Below are positions 74 through 6,155 of a stretch of DNA of 6,541 bases, in pieces. Each line of letters begins with the position of its first letter. Position 1 is the stretch's first letter. The stretch is taken from positions 1 through 6,541 of the forward strand of contig RFFU01000115.1 in assembly GCA_003697085.1 (NCBI GenBank). Direction: 5' to 3'. The DNA is from Candidatus Hydrogenedentota bacterium (GTDB taxonomy: Bacteria; UBA8481; J006). The notes beneath the pieces were generated by a model that was not told where the DNA came from, searched no databases, and was given only the letters and a program-made list of their open reading frames with translations. Position numbers and translations under genes: made by a program.

Positions 74-1279
74 TTATCCGCGAAGGAAGGACTCCCCCGC
101 CAAAATCGGGAGACCAAAATTCTCCGAAACCGTGGCGCCGATATCCGCCAACGACCGGCGAAGCCCGACATCCTTACCTTCCCGCCACCGAGGGCTCCAC
201 CCCAATATTAAACAGTACTCCCGCGAGTGATCCGTCCCCGGCGTTGTAGGATCGTTTCCGTGGTCACTACACAAAAGAAGCAGGTCATCTTCTCCGAGAA
301 CTTCTTGTATCCGCGGTAAGGCATTGTCGAACTCCTCCAACGCTCCGGCATATCCTTGCGGATTATTTCTGTGACCGTACAACATATCGAAATCCACGAG
401 GTTCGTGAAGATCAGACCTTCCGGATGACTGTCTATCCCCAGAAGCGTCTTTCTAATTCCATCGGCATTATTTCGTGTTTTGACGTAATCCTTGATTCCG
501 CGTCCCGCGAAGATGTCACAAATCTTGCCGACGGCCAGGCTAGGAATCCCCGCCTTCTGCAGTTCATCCAACACTGTGCGACTCGGCGGCAGAAGCGAAT
601 AGTCCCGGCGGTTTGCCGTTCGTGTAAAATGACCGTTTTCTCCCAAAAACGGCCGTGCGATAACGCGTCCCACCTCGTGCTCCCCCCGTAACAAGCTCCG
701 AGCCTTCTCACACACGTCATAAAGACGTTTCAAACCGAAAGCCTCCTCGTGAGCGGCAATTTGAAATACGGAATCAGCACTGGTATAGACAATCGGTTTG
801 CCCGTTTTGATATGTTCATCTCCAAAGAGTTTGATCACTTCCGTTCCGGAAATCGAGAGATTCCCCAAAACACCGGGAACGCCCGTCTCCTTTATGAATT
901 TTTCAAGAAGATCTTCAGGAAATCCTCGAGGATAGACCGGAAGTTTTCTTTTCAGAACACACCCCATCATCTCCCAGTGTCCCGAAGTCGTATCCTTGTT
1001 CGGAGCAGCCAACGCCGCCTTACCGAACAGACCTTTCGCCGGCCGCCGGGGTGATACCCCTTTCACCTCGGTGAGATTTCCCAAGCCTAATGCTTCGAGA
1101 TGCGGCAGTTCGAGTCCTCCGACTGCTTTTGCTGTATTGCCAAGAGTGTTCGAATACCGATGACCGTCGTATTCTTCGGCATCGGGCATCGCACCAACAC
1201 CGACTGAATCCAATACGATCAGGACAATTCTCCTAAAAGTACCATCGTTATTGTTATTTGCCGTTGTCACCCTTCTCAA
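74..1279 (-). CDS. deoB: Phosphopentomutase (DeoB)
   Basis: Cytoplasmic phosphopentomutase of the alkaline-phosphatase superfamily. It interconverts (deoxy)ribose 1-phosphate and (deoxy)ribose 5-phosphate in nucleoside breakdown. The 401 residues match the usual family length. Visible motifs: IVLDSVGVGAMPDA (metal-ligand Asp24); DTTSGHWE at 96-103, holding the threonine that is phosphorylated in characterised members; the cap-domain stretch YTSADSVFQIAAHEE at 165-179; VDFDMLYGHRNN at 295-306; and the metal-binding SDHGND (338-343) and TDHSRE (349-354). All expected metal ligands are present, so the enzyme should be active. The start is uncertain: TTG at 1279 lies only 3 bases after an AGGGAGG, and a GTG three codons later (1270-1268) is a rival. 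No in-frame ATG precedes the conserved core, and an in-frame TGA lies upstream at 1297-1295. It follows the DeoC fusion by 148 bases on the same strand and supplies that enzyme's substrate. Confidence 0.95.
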   Translation of the reverse strand: MRRVTTANNNNDGTFRRIVLIVLDSVGVGAMPDAEEYDGHRYSNTLGNTAKAVGGLELPHLEALGLGNLTEVKGVSPRRPAKGLFGKAALAAPNKDTTSGHWEMMGCVLKRKLPVYPRGFPEDLLEKFIKETGVPGVLGNLSISGTEVIKLFGDEHIKTGKPIVYTSADSVFQIAAHEEAFGLKRLYDVCEKARSLLRGEHEVGRVIARPFLGENGHFTRTANRRDYSLLPPSRTVLDELQKAGIPSLAVGKICDIFAGRGIKDYVKTRNNADGIRKTLLGIDSHPEGLIFTNLVDFDMLYGHRNNPQGYAGALEEFDNALPRIQEVLGEDDLLLLCSDHGNDPTTPGTDHSREYCLILGWSPRWREGKDVGLRRSLADIGATVSENFGLPILAGESFLRG

Positions 1280-1427: not shown

Positions 1428-2960
1428 TCAATAGCCTGCTTTTTGGGACTTCTTTCCGGTTACAATCGCCACCGAAGCCGATGCTCCGATCCGCGTCGCT
1501 CCCGCGCGAATCATCTTTTCTGCGTCTTCCTTCGTCCTGACACCTCCGGAAGCCTTGACACCCAACGATCGACCGACCACCTTCCGCATCAAAGCAACAT
1601 CCTCGGGCGTCGCCCCGCCTCCGCCAAACCCCGTCGAAGTTTTTACGAAATGCGCACCTGCGGCGACACACAGCTGACAGGCGGCGACTTTTTCCTCATC
1701 CGTAAGAAGATGCGTTTCGAGAATGACCTTTACCGTCCGGCCTTTCGCCGCCTCCACCACTGCCTCGATGTCATGCTTGACCTTTTCGTACTCTCCTGCC
1801 TTCAGCGCGCCGACGTTAATCACCATATCGATTTCGTCTGCACCATCGGCCACTGCATCCCGCGTCTCGGCGGCCTTGGCCGCCGTCGTGGTCGCACCGA
1901 GCGGGAATCCGATAACGGTACATACCAAGACCCCCGACCCCCGCAACAGCCGTTTGCAAAGCGAGACGTACGTGGGATTGACACAGACGGATTTGAAACC
2001 AAATTTCCGCGCCTCCGCACAGAGCCTCTCGATGTCTTTCGGTGTGGCGTTCGGCTTCAGAAAGGTGTGATCGATCATCTTGGCGATTCGGTCACCCTTG
2101 TTGCCGGCCACCTCGGCTGACCCCGTCGTTCCAATGCGGCAGGCTCCCGCCGCAATACACTCCTCGATTGATTCCCTAACTCGCGCGGCGCACGGCGCGC
2201 ACGTCGGATCATCGGCCAGTTTGGAAACGAGATATTCTTCTATGTCCTCCACGGCCGTACGACAATCCACGGTCGCTGATCCCGTCAAACTCATTCCGGA
2301 AGGAGTGTCTGCATTCGAAAACCCACCTGCCGGAGAAACAACCGTCCCGCCGTCTCCAACGGTACTTTCAGAGAGCTTCCAGACATCGACAACACGTACT
2401 CCAGTCTTTTTCAAGCGTTCGACGAGATCGGCGCCGATTTCTCGAAAAGCCGGCGGCGTAAACCCCTGGCGCTGTAATCCCGATAAAAGGGCATTTTCGG
2501 CTGCGACAACCGGGATCCTCCGCAACAGTGCCGCCAGGACAAGTTGGGGACCGAGCGAATCGGCGATGAGCCAGGATATTTTTCCGGCCGTCGTTGTGTT
2601 ACAAAGCGGTATTACCAACACCGACGCCCCCTGGAGAATCTCCCCCGCGGAGGCGCCTTCACTTTCCTTGTAAACCCGATCCGGACTTGTCCGCCGGATA
2701 AATTCAGGTCCGACCGCGCGTGGCCCCCCATTTCCTTCCGCACACCTCGTCAAAACTACGATAAGCCGCCCGTATCGGTTCCGCATCTTCTCGATTTGAA
2801 TTACGGCTTCATCGAATCCCGCCGCGGTGCCTGTAACCAACACCACGAGATTTCCCGTGGACACGCCGCCAGCCTCCCCCCCACCGGAAGCCGCGCTCCT
2901 TTCGAGACGACGCACGACTTCGCGAGTGATCCGTTCCACCAGCATCTTGTCCACGTTCAC
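1428..2960 (-). CDS. deoC: Fusion: BMC-type flavoprotein domain + deoxyribose-phosphate aldolase
   Basis: The C-terminal third (about 287-505) is a complete class I deoxyribose-phosphate aldolase, which cleaves 2-deoxyribose 5-phosphate to acetaldehyde and glyceraldehyde 3-phosphate. It shows IDHTFLKP (296-303), Asp378 in DEIDMVIN, Schiff-base Lys440 in FVKTSTGF and the proton-relay Lys469 in VKASGGVR. Free-standing DeoC is usually about 220-260 residues; this protein has 510. Residues 1-22 ([14 protein letters not shown] core) form an amphipathic helix followed by a Gly/Ser/Ala-rich linker, the pattern of a microcompartment encapsulation peptide. Residues 37-193 resemble the flavoprotein found in BMC loci ([20 protein letters not shown], then IPVVAAENA). 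A linker at 194-285 has a second short helix and CxxC (254-257). The start is GTG, supported by AAGAGGAG at 2977-2970. It is first in an operon with deoB. Aldolase identity is near certain, the flavoprotein assignment good, and microcompartment targeting inferred. Confidence 0.93.
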
Positions 2961-3058
2961 CTGAAAGATCTCCTCTTGATCACCTTGATCACCGATAACG
3001 CCTCCTTGGATCTTCCGAATGCTAAATCACCTTTCTCCGTGCTGCAACATTTTCTCAT
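2957..3058 (-). CDS. Possible short leader ORF overlapping the aldolase fusion start
   Basis: A 33-codon frame from ATG 3058-3056 ends in a TGA (2959-2957) that overlaps the GTG start of the aldolase fusion as GTGA, the usual geometry of translational coupling. Its own upstream sequence (AGGAT right against the ATG) is a poor ribosome site. A shorter version is better supported: an internal GTG at 2992-2990 has AAGGAGG (3007-3001) exactly 8 bases upstream, giving an 11-residue basic peptide ending [10 protein letters not shown]. The sequence contains a 9-base tandem duplication. I recognise no family. It could be a leader peptide controlling the operon, or the second Shine-Dalgarno could be chance. 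Confidence 0.25.
2970..2977 (-). promoter_or_regulatory. Ribosome binding site that fixes the GTG start of the aldolase fusion
   Basis: AAGAGGAG on the minus strand ends 9 bases upstream of the GTG at 2960-2958. No ATG, GTG or TTG lies in frame between this start and the in-frame TGA further upstream, so the protein begins here or at a nearby internal GTG/ATG (codons 3 and 6), which are worse spaced. Confidence 0.7.
2976..2993. repeat. 9-bp tandem duplication next to the aldolase start
   Basis: TTGATCACC occurs twice head-to-tail (2976-2984 and 2985-2993); each copy contains the palindrome TGATCA. It lies immediately upstream of the aldolase ribosome site, within the possible leader ORF, where it encodes the repeated Val-Ile-Lys. 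It may be a simple slippage duplication or a double binding site. Confidence 0.6.
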
Positions 3059-3288: not shown

Positions 3289-4107
3289 ATGCCCGTTGAT
3301 CGGAGTTTTCTCGAAAAGAAGGCCGACTTCGTCCGGCGCGAGACTTTGAAGATCCACAAACGTGCTCCCGAAACGAGGTTGGCGTCTTCCCTCTCCGCCG
3401 TCGAAATACTCGTGGTTCTCTATTACGGCGGATTCATAAAGATCGATCCTTCTCATTTTCGCTCCGAAGAGAGGGATCGGTTGATCGTCAGCAAAGCCCA
3501 CGGCTCCGTCTCTCTCTTTCCCATTCTGGCCGACCTGGGTTTTTTCGACGAAGCGGAATTGGAGAGGGTGTGTCGTCCGGGGGCTCTTTTGGGAAGCATT
3601 CCCGACCCGAGTGTGCCCGGTTACGAAACGATCAACGGCTCGTTGGGGCACGGGCTCGGAGTGGGATGCGGAATGGCGCTCGGCTTGAAGAAGAAGGGAA
3701 AGGGAAACTCCGTCTTCGTTCTTTTGGGAGACGGGGAACTTTACGAGGGGGCCGTGTGGGAAGCGGTTATGTTCGCTCCGCAATTTCACCTGGACAATTT
3801 GACCGCGATCGTGGATGCCAATCGAACCAGTATGCTCGATCGTTGCTCCCACATTATCGACCTCGAGCCCCTGGAAGAAAAATTCAGAACGTTCGGTTGG
3901 GAGACGGCCGTCATCGACGGGCATAACGTTGAAGAATTGCACGAGACGTTTTCCCGCTTCAAGGAAAGGACGGCCGGAAGGCCGAAGGTCGTCGTTGCCG
4001 GCACGATCAAGGGGAAAGGCGTCCCGCGGCTGGAAAGAGATCCCTTGAGCCATATTCGAAACCTGAGCCCGAGGGAGATCGACGCCCTTTTGGCGGATTC
4101 GTTATGA
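3289..4107 (+). CDS. Transketolase, N-terminal (thiamine-diphosphate-binding) subunit
   Basis: N-terminal half of a two-gene transketolase, which moves two-carbon ketol units between sugar phosphates using thiamine diphosphate and a divalent metal. The 272 residues match the usual length of split N subunits. Visible: SLSAVEILVVLYYGG (34-48), RDRLIVSKAHGS with conserved His71, GSLGHGLGVGCGMALG (117-132), the cofactor motif GDGE (147-150) with WEA (157-159) running to Asn178 in DAN, and KGKGVP (241-246) with His255 near the end. Two histidine motifs usual in transketolases are absent: the first GHxG-type motif reads ETRLAS (Arg30 in the His position), and the GHPD segment reads GSIPDP (102-107). 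The ATG at 3289 follows GAGAAAGG by 10 bases. The stop overlaps the next start (ATGA), so the two subunits are translationally coupled. Family certain, substrate unknown. Confidence 0.93.
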   Translation: MPVDRSFLEKKADFVRRETLKIHKRAPETRLASSLSAVEILVVLYYGGFIKIDPSHFRSEERDRLIVSKAHGSVSLFPILADLGFFDEAELERVCRPGALLGSIPDPSVPGYETINGSLGHGLGVGCGMALGLKKKGKGNSVFVLLGDGELYEGAVWEAVMFAPQFHLDNLTAIVDANRTSMLDRCSHIIDLEPLEEKFRTFGWETAVIDGHNVEELHETFSRFKERTAGRPKVVVAGTIKGKGVPRLERDPLSHIRNLSPREIDALLADSL

Positions 4108-5060
4108 AGAACGGTCCGGAAAGACGGATGCGGGACATCTTCCTGGAAGAGGTGTACCGAATAATGAAAAGGGAAGATATCTTCTTTCTTTCCGACGATT
4201 TCGGATCGCCCGTCCTGGACCAATTGCGCCGGGATTTTCCCGAACGGTTCGTCAATGTCGGTATCGCGGAACAGAATCTCATCAATCTTGCCGCGGGACT
4301 TGCTCTGGAAGGTTGGACGGTCTATGCCTACGGCATCGCCGCCTTCTTAAGCATGAGGGCTTACGAACAGGTACGCGTCAATCTGGCTATGCTTTCGCAG
4401 TGGAGAGATATAAACGTCAACCTCGTGGCGGTCGGAGCGGGGGTGAGTTACGATGTCTCCGGCCCGTCGCATCACTGCCTCGAGGACCTCGGGCTGATGC
4501 GGATGCTGCCGAATATGACTGTGTTTTCTCCCAGCGACGGGATATTGTGCGAAGAGATCGCCGATTACACCGCGAAGGCGAGCGGTCCGAAATACATCAG
4601 GCTCGACGGCAAAGCACTCCCCAACCTTTACAAGGGAATCGGAGCGGAAGAGTTGAAGTGCGGCTTTTCGGAGATTCGGCGGGGAGAAAAATTGTGTATC
4701 GTCGCCACGGGGTATATGACGCATCGGGCGCTGGCGGCGTGCGAGTCATTGAAAAGCGAAATTATCGATGTCGGCGTCATCGACGTCTTTCTCCTGAAAC
4801 CGTTCGATGAAGGAAAACTTTTCGAGACGTTGGAACGCTACGACGGCATCGTCACCCTCGAGGAAGGATTCGTCAACAAGGGGGGGCTCGACGGCCTCAT
4901 CTCTTCCCTCCTCGAAAAGAACGGCTCTCGAAAAAGTTTGGCGGCACTGGGCTTCAAGGATGCCTACACCTTCGATGTGGGGAACAGAGAATATCTACAC
5001 CGGTTAAATCAATTGGACGAAGAAAGTATCCTTCGGACCATCAAAAGCATGTTGGATTAG
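4104..5060 (+). CDS. Transketolase, C-terminal (pyrimidine-binding) subunit
   Basis: Partner of the preceding gene; together they make one transketolase active site at the subunit interface. The 318 residues contain the pyrimidine-binding domain (about 8-170) and the transketolase C-terminal domain (about 190-318). Visible: NVGIAEQNLINLAAGLALEG (51-70), with Glu56 in the place of the glutamate that activates the cofactor; YGIAAFLSMRAYEQVR (76-91); GAGVSYDVSGPSHHCLED (111-127), with Asp117 and His123 in the positions of the substrate-contact Asp and His of classical transketolases; and FSPSDG (141-146). The ATG overlaps the TGA of the first subunit. Split transketolases occur in central metabolism and in sugar or surface-polysaccharide clusters, so the physiological role is open. 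It could use the glyceraldehyde 3-phosphate released by the aldolase encoded divergently, but that is inference. Confidence 0.93.
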   Translation: MKNGPERRMRDIFLEEVYRIMKREDIFFLSDDFGSPVLDQLRRDFPERFVNVGIAEQNLINLAAGLALEGWTVYAYGIAAFLSMRAYEQVRVNLAMLSQWRDINVNLVAVGAGVSYDVSGPSHHCLEDLGLMRMLPNMTVFSPSDGILCEEIADYTAKASGPKYIRLDGKALPNLYKGIGAEELKCGFSEIRRGEKLCIVATGYMTHRALAACESLKSEIIDVGVIDVFLLKPFDEGKLFETLERYDGIVTLEEGFVNKGGLDGLISSLLEKNGSRKSLAALGFKDAYTFDVGNREYLHRLNQLDEESILRTIKSMLD

Positions 5061-5507: not shown

Positions 5508-5735
5508 ATGGATAGGACACTGACCTTGCTGGATCACGCAATCTCTGATCTGAAAGAATTGCGGAGAGAGCTGGCTGGGAAGCAATCTCCGGCCTCACCC
5601 AACGCGCCGACCGCCCCCGACGAGTCACGGGGCATTTTTGGTTTTCTTTCGCTCGCGGAGGAAGTGTCCGCTTCGTGGAAGGGAAGCGGCTCGGCTGTTG
5701 ACGCCATCCGCGAAGAACGCGGTAAAAACGAATAG
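5508..5735 (+). CDS. vapB: Probable VapB-like antitoxin
   Basis: A 75-residue protein directly upstream of a PIN-domain toxin, the standard antitoxin position. The C-terminal end, SWKGSGSAVDAIREERGKNE (56-75), has the Trp-then-helix, Arg/Glu-rich look of VapB tails that wrap around the VapC active site. The N-terminal stretch (LLDHAISDLKELRRELAG) is a likely amphipathic helix, followed by a Pro/Ala/Ser-rich linker at about 25-40. I see no clear ribbon-helix-helix, AbrB or Phd DNA-binding domain, so autoregulation is not obvious. The ATG at 5508 was chosen over a longer frame beginning at 5301 because a perfect TATAAT lies just before it and the upstream part is translated repeat. Its TAG is immediately followed by the vapC TTG with no gap. 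Confidence 0.7.
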   Translation: MDRTLTLLDHAISDLKELRRELAGKQSPASPNAPTAPDESRGIFGFLSLAEEVSASWKGSGSAVDAIREERGKNE

Positions 5736-6155
5736 TTGCTCTTCACAGTCGACAGTTGTGTGTTTATTGCCGCCGTCCTCGATACAGAACCGGCCCACCA
5801 AGCCTCGAAAGAATTCCTTATCCGCCTCAAAACGAGAGAACAACCTTGTGTGATTCCAGCGACCGTTCTTGTCGAGACGGCCTGCGCTCTGGCTCGCCGA
5901 TCGACGGTGAACGACATAGGAATGCGTGTATACTCGAGATTATCGGAGGACCCCACAATTACCGTAATGCCACTCTCGGCCTCTGACGCAGTTACAATCA
6001 CCGAACTGGGAACACGGTGCCGTTTGCGAGGAATGGACGCTATCGTCGCTGCTTGCGCGAAAAAAGCGGGCGCAACGCTCGTTACGCTCGACGAGGAGTT
6101 GATCGAAAAACTCGACGGGGTGCTCACCATAAAACGCCCTTCTGAAACAGGATAA
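5736..6155 (+). CDS. vapC: PIN-domain ribonuclease toxin, VapC family
   Basis: A 139-residue single PIN domain, typical VapC length. VapC toxins are Mg2+-dependent endoribonucleases that cut tRNA or rRNA and arrest growth until neutralised by the antitoxin. The four acidic active-site residues are in place: Asp6 in FTVDSCVFI, Glu47 in VLVETACALARR, Asp101 in RGMDAIVAACAKKAGATLVT, and Asp119 in TLDEEL, so the toxin looks intact. Translation starts at TTG (5736) directly abutting the antitoxin stop; this gives the N-terminus expected for PIN proteins, which begin only a few residues before the first Asp. There is no separate ribosome site, so expression likely depends on ribosomes arriving from vapB. 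Followed by repeat-rich DNA. Confidence 0.9.
   Translation: MLFTVDSCVFIAAVLDTEPAHQASKEFLIRLKTREQPCVIPATVLVETACALARRSTVNDIGMRVYSRLSEDPTITVMPLSASDAVTITELGTRCRLRGMDAIVAACAKKAGATLVTLDEELIEKLDGVLTIKRPSETG

Follow-up and report, generated by a model that had tools for sequence, protein, structure and literature searches.

A predicted microcompartment cargo protein joining a flavoprotein-like core to deoxyribose-phosphate aldolase in a Hydrogenedentota genome

A single polypeptide encoded by a Candidatus Hydrogenedentota bacterium joins an N-terminal helix resembling an encapsulation peptide (EP), a core related to the flavoproteins of bacterial microcompartment (BMC) loci and a deoxyribose-phosphate aldolase (DeoC). 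This fusion is likely to be a cargo protein and to act as the signature enzyme, the one that generates the aldehyde, of a metabolosome with its genes dispersed over the genome. The gene was found in a stretch of 6541 bp (the window), which is the entire contig C8 of a MAG of 3.2 Mb with a completeness of 94.6% and a contamination of 1.85%. The unbroken frame of 510 codons described in the first-pass annotation of this DNA was confirmed; its GTG start is preceded by AGGAG at a spacing of 9 nt and an in-frame stop codon lies upstream. The features of the gene, together with those of related loci, are collected in Table 1.

Table 1. Positions of features in the window and, where a locus handle precedes the colon, of tail-bearing proteins in related loci
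Feature	Position	Strand	Basis or remark
EP-flavoprotein-DeoC fusion CDS, 510 aa	1428..2960	-	one open frame; architecture repeated in G001 (5' end cut by contig end), G133 and G270
Shine-Dalgarno AGGAG, 9 nt 5' of GTG start	2970..2974	-	sequence
Residues 1-24, amphipathic helix, encapsulation-peptide-like	2889..2960	-	EP profile, 18 other BMC cargo N-termini
Residues 25-36, Gly/Ser-rich linker	2853..2888	-	sequence
Residues 37-200, BMC-flavoprotein-like core	2361..2852	-	profile of 7 standalone BMC flavoproteins; relatives match PF02441
Residues 201-289, linker; final ~40 residues like N-terminal extension of tagged DeoCs	2094..2360	-	sequence comparison
Residues 254-274, C-x2-C-x10-C-x5-C motif	2139..2201	-	4/4 Cys kept in G001
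Residues 290-505, deoxyribose-phosphate aldolase domain, D378/K440/K469	1446..2093	-	TIGR00126 E 8.2e-89; PDB DeoCs
deoB phosphopentomutase, downstream of fusion, same strand	74..1279	-	NF003766 E 2e-151; start probably within listed frame
Tail-bearing small tagged proteins	L004:4594-5085, L026:3341-3826, L078:10397-10717
Tail-bearing RpiB (weak)	L080:2102-2752

A survey for the same two-domain architecture, which had been proposed as a check, found the fusion in four genomes of two phyla, that of the window (G000) included. The MAG 'Candidatus Hydrogenedentes bacterium CG07_land_8_20_14_0_80_42_17' (G001), which belongs to the same order and is the only other genome of the phylum among those searched, carries a 5'-truncated fusion with deoB following directly. 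In another phylum, G133 and G270 encode fusions of 456 and 459 aa, with a distance of 31-32 bp between a BMC-P shell gene and the start of the fusion gene that follows it. G013, G129 and G161 encode DeoC and flavoprotein as two separate proteins, each with a tag, and the tagged DeoCs of these three genomes carry a linker like that of the fusion. Trees of the DeoC and flavoprotein sequences had supports of 27-47 at several deep nodes. The fusion is the sole DeoC detected in the window genome, no more than one DeoC copy per genome being found in the ten genomes searched, and a search of plasmid records returned ordinary DeoC matches only, none of them spanning 80% of the fusion.

The C-terminal domain is, as judged from its sequence, certainly a DeoC with a complete set of catalytic residues. 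It matches TIGR00126 over residues 292-500 with 296.6 bits, exceeding the curated cut-off of 117.3, and PF01791 with 71.3 bits. Alignment to 6d33, a B. halodurans DeoC structure, places D378, K440 and K469 in register with D92, K155 and K184, the last of which is the residue mutated in structure 6msw according to the title of that entry. The earlier identification of a catalytically complete DeoC with these three residues therefore stands, with the start of the domain moved from residue 287 to about 290. Directly before the DeoC domain lies a CxxC-x10-C-x5-C motif, possibly a metal or Fe-S site. A CxxC is also seen in the tagged DeoCs of G013 and G129, and is absent from G133, G270 and G161.

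Evidence for the nature of the preceding domain came from a profile of seven standalone BMC-locus flavoproteins, which matched residues 8-200 of the fusion with 66 bits (E 2e-19 among 1209 sequences); the highest score of 2000 shuffles on this profile was 11.9 bits. On its own the window domain gave no Pfam or NCBIfam flavoprotein match and did not reach PF02441 at E<=1, a threshold at which eight of ten aligned cores matched that family (best E 7.9e-9). In single-protein scans of five of the seven standalone proteins, which left out L035 and L037, the curated PF02441 cut-off was passed by L031, L033, L034 and L038 and failed by L036, and the G133 fusion fell slightly short of it (21.5 bits against 22.7). 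The profile match, together with the PF02441 matches of the relatives, identifies residues 37-200 as a divergent BMC flavoprotein core. The first-pass annotation had seen a resemblance to the flavoprotein of BMC loci at residues 37-193; the resemblance is borne out, the end lies instead at about residue 200, and of the two families suggested for comparison the BMC-locus flavoproteins were matched by the window copy and PF02441 was not.

When a two-sequence profile of the domain was searched in 386 genomes, eight weak matches were obtained outside the phylum, namely the G133 fusion and seven standalone proteins that are encoded in BMC loci and begin with a tag-like sequence. Most of these seven adjoin BMC-H and lie near PduL and an aldehyde dehydrogenase; for that of G108, BMC-H is a few kb off and BMC-P is adjacent. 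A scan of genome contigs with the N-terminal domain matched only the sister MAG, and the two-sequence profile gave only chance matches to PDB sequences. A low-confidence model of the domain (pLDDT 61.5, two sequences) matched generic alpha/beta folds in Foldseek, and no PF02441-type flavoprotein was among the best 50 matches listed for this model from Foldseek or from a second look with VIA-align.

The domain may bind FMN and may be redox-active. In the proposed mechanism the core, which elsewhere belongs to a separate BMC cargo protein and is here tethered to DeoC, would most likely handle electrons with PduS and a PduT-like pore, so reoxidising the NADH of the aldehyde dehydrogenase. In PDU compartments NADH is oxidised by PduS, which is in contact with PduT, an Fe-S shell protein (PMC6325248); a PduS/PduT electron route is therefore plausible in the present case as well, and the flavoprotein might take part in it. 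The redox step is the weakest of the mechanism and is put forward tentatively, as something that may well prove not to occur. A loop near the N-terminus that resembles the FMN-binding (glycine) loop of CoaC is altered in G133 and G270, so that flavin binding may be lost, and none of the BMC members has the 'PAMN' motif of CoaC. These changes, and the divergence of a window domain that scores under PF02441, would suit a flavin-free packaging or assembly module, in which case the fusion would only set stoichiometry or help to nucleate the cargo core and no electrons would be transferred. The persistence of tag and tail as a separate small cargo protein in fusion genomes points the same way, in that it suggests that modules are traded for assembly. 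Such a module is harder to reconcile with the PF02441-type motif, whose K and D residues are invariant in all ten sequences, with the PF02441 matches of four of the five singly scanned standalone flavoproteins and the weak matches of some cores to the AfpA and MJ0208 families, or with the co-occurrence of PduS and PduT. It is nevertheless a realistic explanation, if one falling somewhat short of probable.

The N-terminal helix is predicted to work as a shell-targeting tag. On an EP profile made from 18 other cargo N-termini, the N-terminus of the fusion scored 11.4 bits (E 0.0056) among 353 N-termini, outranking all non-BMC ones, the top of which scored 6.7 bits, and ranking slightly under known cargo. 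The training sequences of the profile sit among its upper ranks and the relevant comparison is therefore that with the non-BMC background. The helix has a hydrophobic moment of 0.709, a value that 0.86% of background N-termini attain, and a helix at residues 3-24 is present in a full-protein model of low confidence (pLDDT 48.8, built from two sequences). These results agree with the earlier description of residues 1-36 as an amphipathic helix followed by a Gly/Ser-rich linker.

Shell genes, whose absence from the genome would have spoken against a microcompartment, are present as BMC-H, BMC-P and BMC-T. In the window genome C86 carries BMC-H, BMC-P and a tagged aldehyde dehydrogenase of the EutE/PduP type, C31 carries three tandem BMC-P (there are four BMC-P in the genome altogether), C143 a PduT-like BMC-T adjoining a PduS homologue, and C133 a tagged PduL; RpiB occurs twice, on C86 and C137. 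The enzymes and shell genes are thus spread over contigs C8, C86, C31, C143 and C133, so that the partners expected within about 20 kb of the fusion are found in the genome on contigs other than the gene's own, which is only 6.5 kb long. In G001 a single run comprises PduL, BMC-H, aldehyde dehydrogenase, PduS, PduT-like BMC-T, a tagged small protein and a 5'-nucleotidase, and this genome also has the BMC-P triplet; in G133 RpiB ends a PduL-BMC-H-BMC-P-aldehyde dehydrogenase run. In G000 and G001 alike, the BMC locus has a UshA-like 5'-nucleotidase and a GGDEF protein as its neighbours (L004:1109-4529 and L026:96-3337). Dispersal is not merely the result of contig breakage, since in G013, a single contig of 3.29 Mb, BMC-H and the flavoprotein lie at 586 kb, the tagged DeoC at 673 kb and PduS with BMC-T at 92 kb. 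The BMC-H and tagged flavoprotein pair of G013 (L046:9406-13821) is 2 kb from deoB, with DeoC 87 kb away.

It is G133 and G270 that tie the fusion physically to shell genes, and not the window genome, in which the fusion, on its short contig, adjoins no shell gene. This, and a DeoC and DeoB that look like an ordinary deo pair, would be expected of a cytosolic enzyme of deoxynucleoside catabolism carrying an incidental helix in a genome whose shell genes belong to an unrelated compartment. Such an explanation is improbable, and a purely cytosolic reading was rejected on the grounds that the fusion follows BMC-P so closely in G133 and G270, that its N-terminus ranks by score with the tags of BMC cargo and surpasses every non-BMC one, and that the fused domain otherwise occurs in BMC loci. 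The proposal of a tagged cargo enzyme, which had been made from the window alone, is strengthened by this genomic evidence; the further suggestion, that the join serves to package both parts in a fixed ratio, describes a possible purpose.

If the fusion is indeed such a cargo enzyme, the N-terminal helix would carry it into the shell. DeoB would yield deoxyribose-5-phosphate, which DeoC would cleave, presumably inside the shell, to glyceraldehyde-3-phosphate and acetaldehyde; the tagged CoA-acylating aldehyde dehydrogenase would then convert acetaldehyde to acetyl-CoA and the tagged PduL would form acetyl-phosphate, the identities of these enzymes being taken from their sequences. DeoC is reversible and accepts aldehydes of other kinds (PMC8403123), and the fusion might therefore act mainly in the synthetic direction or on another aldehyde, deoxyribose-5-phosphate not being its physiological substrate. 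We consider this very unlikely, as deoB immediately downstream in G000 and G001, the 5'-nucleotidase beside the BMC locus, the EutE/PduP-type aldehyde dehydrogenase and PduL all fit catabolism to acetyl-phosphate. An error of assembly or annotation that merged two adjacent genes, which a short contig from a MAG might raise, can be rejected with near certainty because the fusion recurs in four genomes from two phyla, each assembled separately, with 78% identity between G000 and G001 in DeoC and 40% in the aligned flavoprotein part.

Among characterised locus types, SPU loci have pfam01791 and pfam02502 in common and are predicted to use DNA sugars (PMC8217296). A pfam01791 aldolase, a pfam02502 RpiB, aldehyde dehydrogenase, PduL, BMC-H and BMC-P are all present in the window genome, which thus shares with SPU (PMC4207490, PMC8217296) DeoC, RpiB, aldehyde dehydrogenase, PduL, shell genes and a predicted catabolism of DNA sugars. 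In SPU, however, signature enzymes and shell genes form one main locus, whereas here they are scattered and DeoC forms one protein with a flavoprotein core; the system is therefore called SPU-like by enzyme content and not a standard SPU locus. In FRAG types the shell genes are dispersed and a BMC-P triplet is present, and FRAG1-7 are among the metabolosome types that have an aldehyde dehydrogenase and no obvious aldehyde-generating enzyme (PMC8217296). The genomes studied here share with them shell genes at several sites, the BMC-P triplet, an aldehyde dehydrogenase near shell genes and membership of candidate phyla, but where FRAG types were described without a signature enzyme that could be recognised, the genomes studied here offer a candidate in the form of a tagged DeoC or a DeoC fusion. 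The compartment is best read as SPU-like by enzyme content and FRAG-like by gene dispersal and the BMC-P triplet.

Other precedents touch on single aspects of the fusion. In some HO genomes a pfam01791 aldolase bearing an EP-like extension is encoded elsewhere in the genome, and the passages of PMC8217296 consulted mention no flavoprotein fusion for it. An aldolase-isomerase fusion is known from Marinimicrobia, and flavoproteins have been reported for EUT2B/2D and GRM3 loci (PMC4207490). In the archaeal Family 4B DeoC A-domain encapsulin (PMC8346489) DeoC is tied to a component of a protein compartment with a proposed use of nucleosides, as here, but that protein is of HK97 type, is not a BMC and includes no flavoprotein. 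No description of a flavoprotein-DeoC fusion or of a FRAG function was found in the literature searched (largely without subscription journals). Whether on its own or joined to a BMC flavoprotein, a tagged DeoC offers a concrete candidate substrate for FRAG compartments and makes their function testable, and the fusion serves as a 'Rosetta stone' that connects the aldolase step with the unexplained flavoprotein of BMC loci.

The standalone BMC-locus flavoproteins (PF02441 relatives; TIGR02536) consist of tag, core and a tail of ~44 aa. Tag and core are alike in the fusion, in which linker and DeoC replace the tail; the latter was not found in the fusions. It recurs in a small tagged protein encoded in the shell locus (two times in G000 and G001, a single time in G133), and is weakly present in the C-terminal extension of RpiB in G001 and G013. 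Its consensus, '[VI]TxxD[VI]...ITPLARDxAxxxGI', which also ends the L031-L038 flavoproteins, is weakly E3-binding-like, and the tail may be a docking module. The most economical interpretation is that the flavoprotein core was transferred, in the fusion genomes, onto the tagged DeoC, tag and tail being left behind as the small protein, with the direction of transfer a matter of inference. A broader and more speculative proposal, which we regard as rather unlikely in its entirety, is that the FRAG-type compartments of several candidate phyla are deoxynucleoside-degrading organelles with the fusion as their redox-coupled signature enzyme; PduS and a PduT-type pore would dispose of electrons without an internal alcohol dehydrogenase, and the core would derive from a separate cargo protein, of which tag and tail persist in the shell locus as a small protein.

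Elsewhere in the window, transketolase is encoded as separate N- and C-terminal genes with an overlap of 4 bp (3289-5060). A short ORF is followed at 5509-6155 by a PIN/VapC-like toxin gene, and the two may form a toxin-antitoxin pair. Repeated 'GGGATACCACGTGGGG'-type stretches were seen by eye near the contig end (5160-5215 and 6360-6470) and are probably dispersed repeats that broke the assembly.
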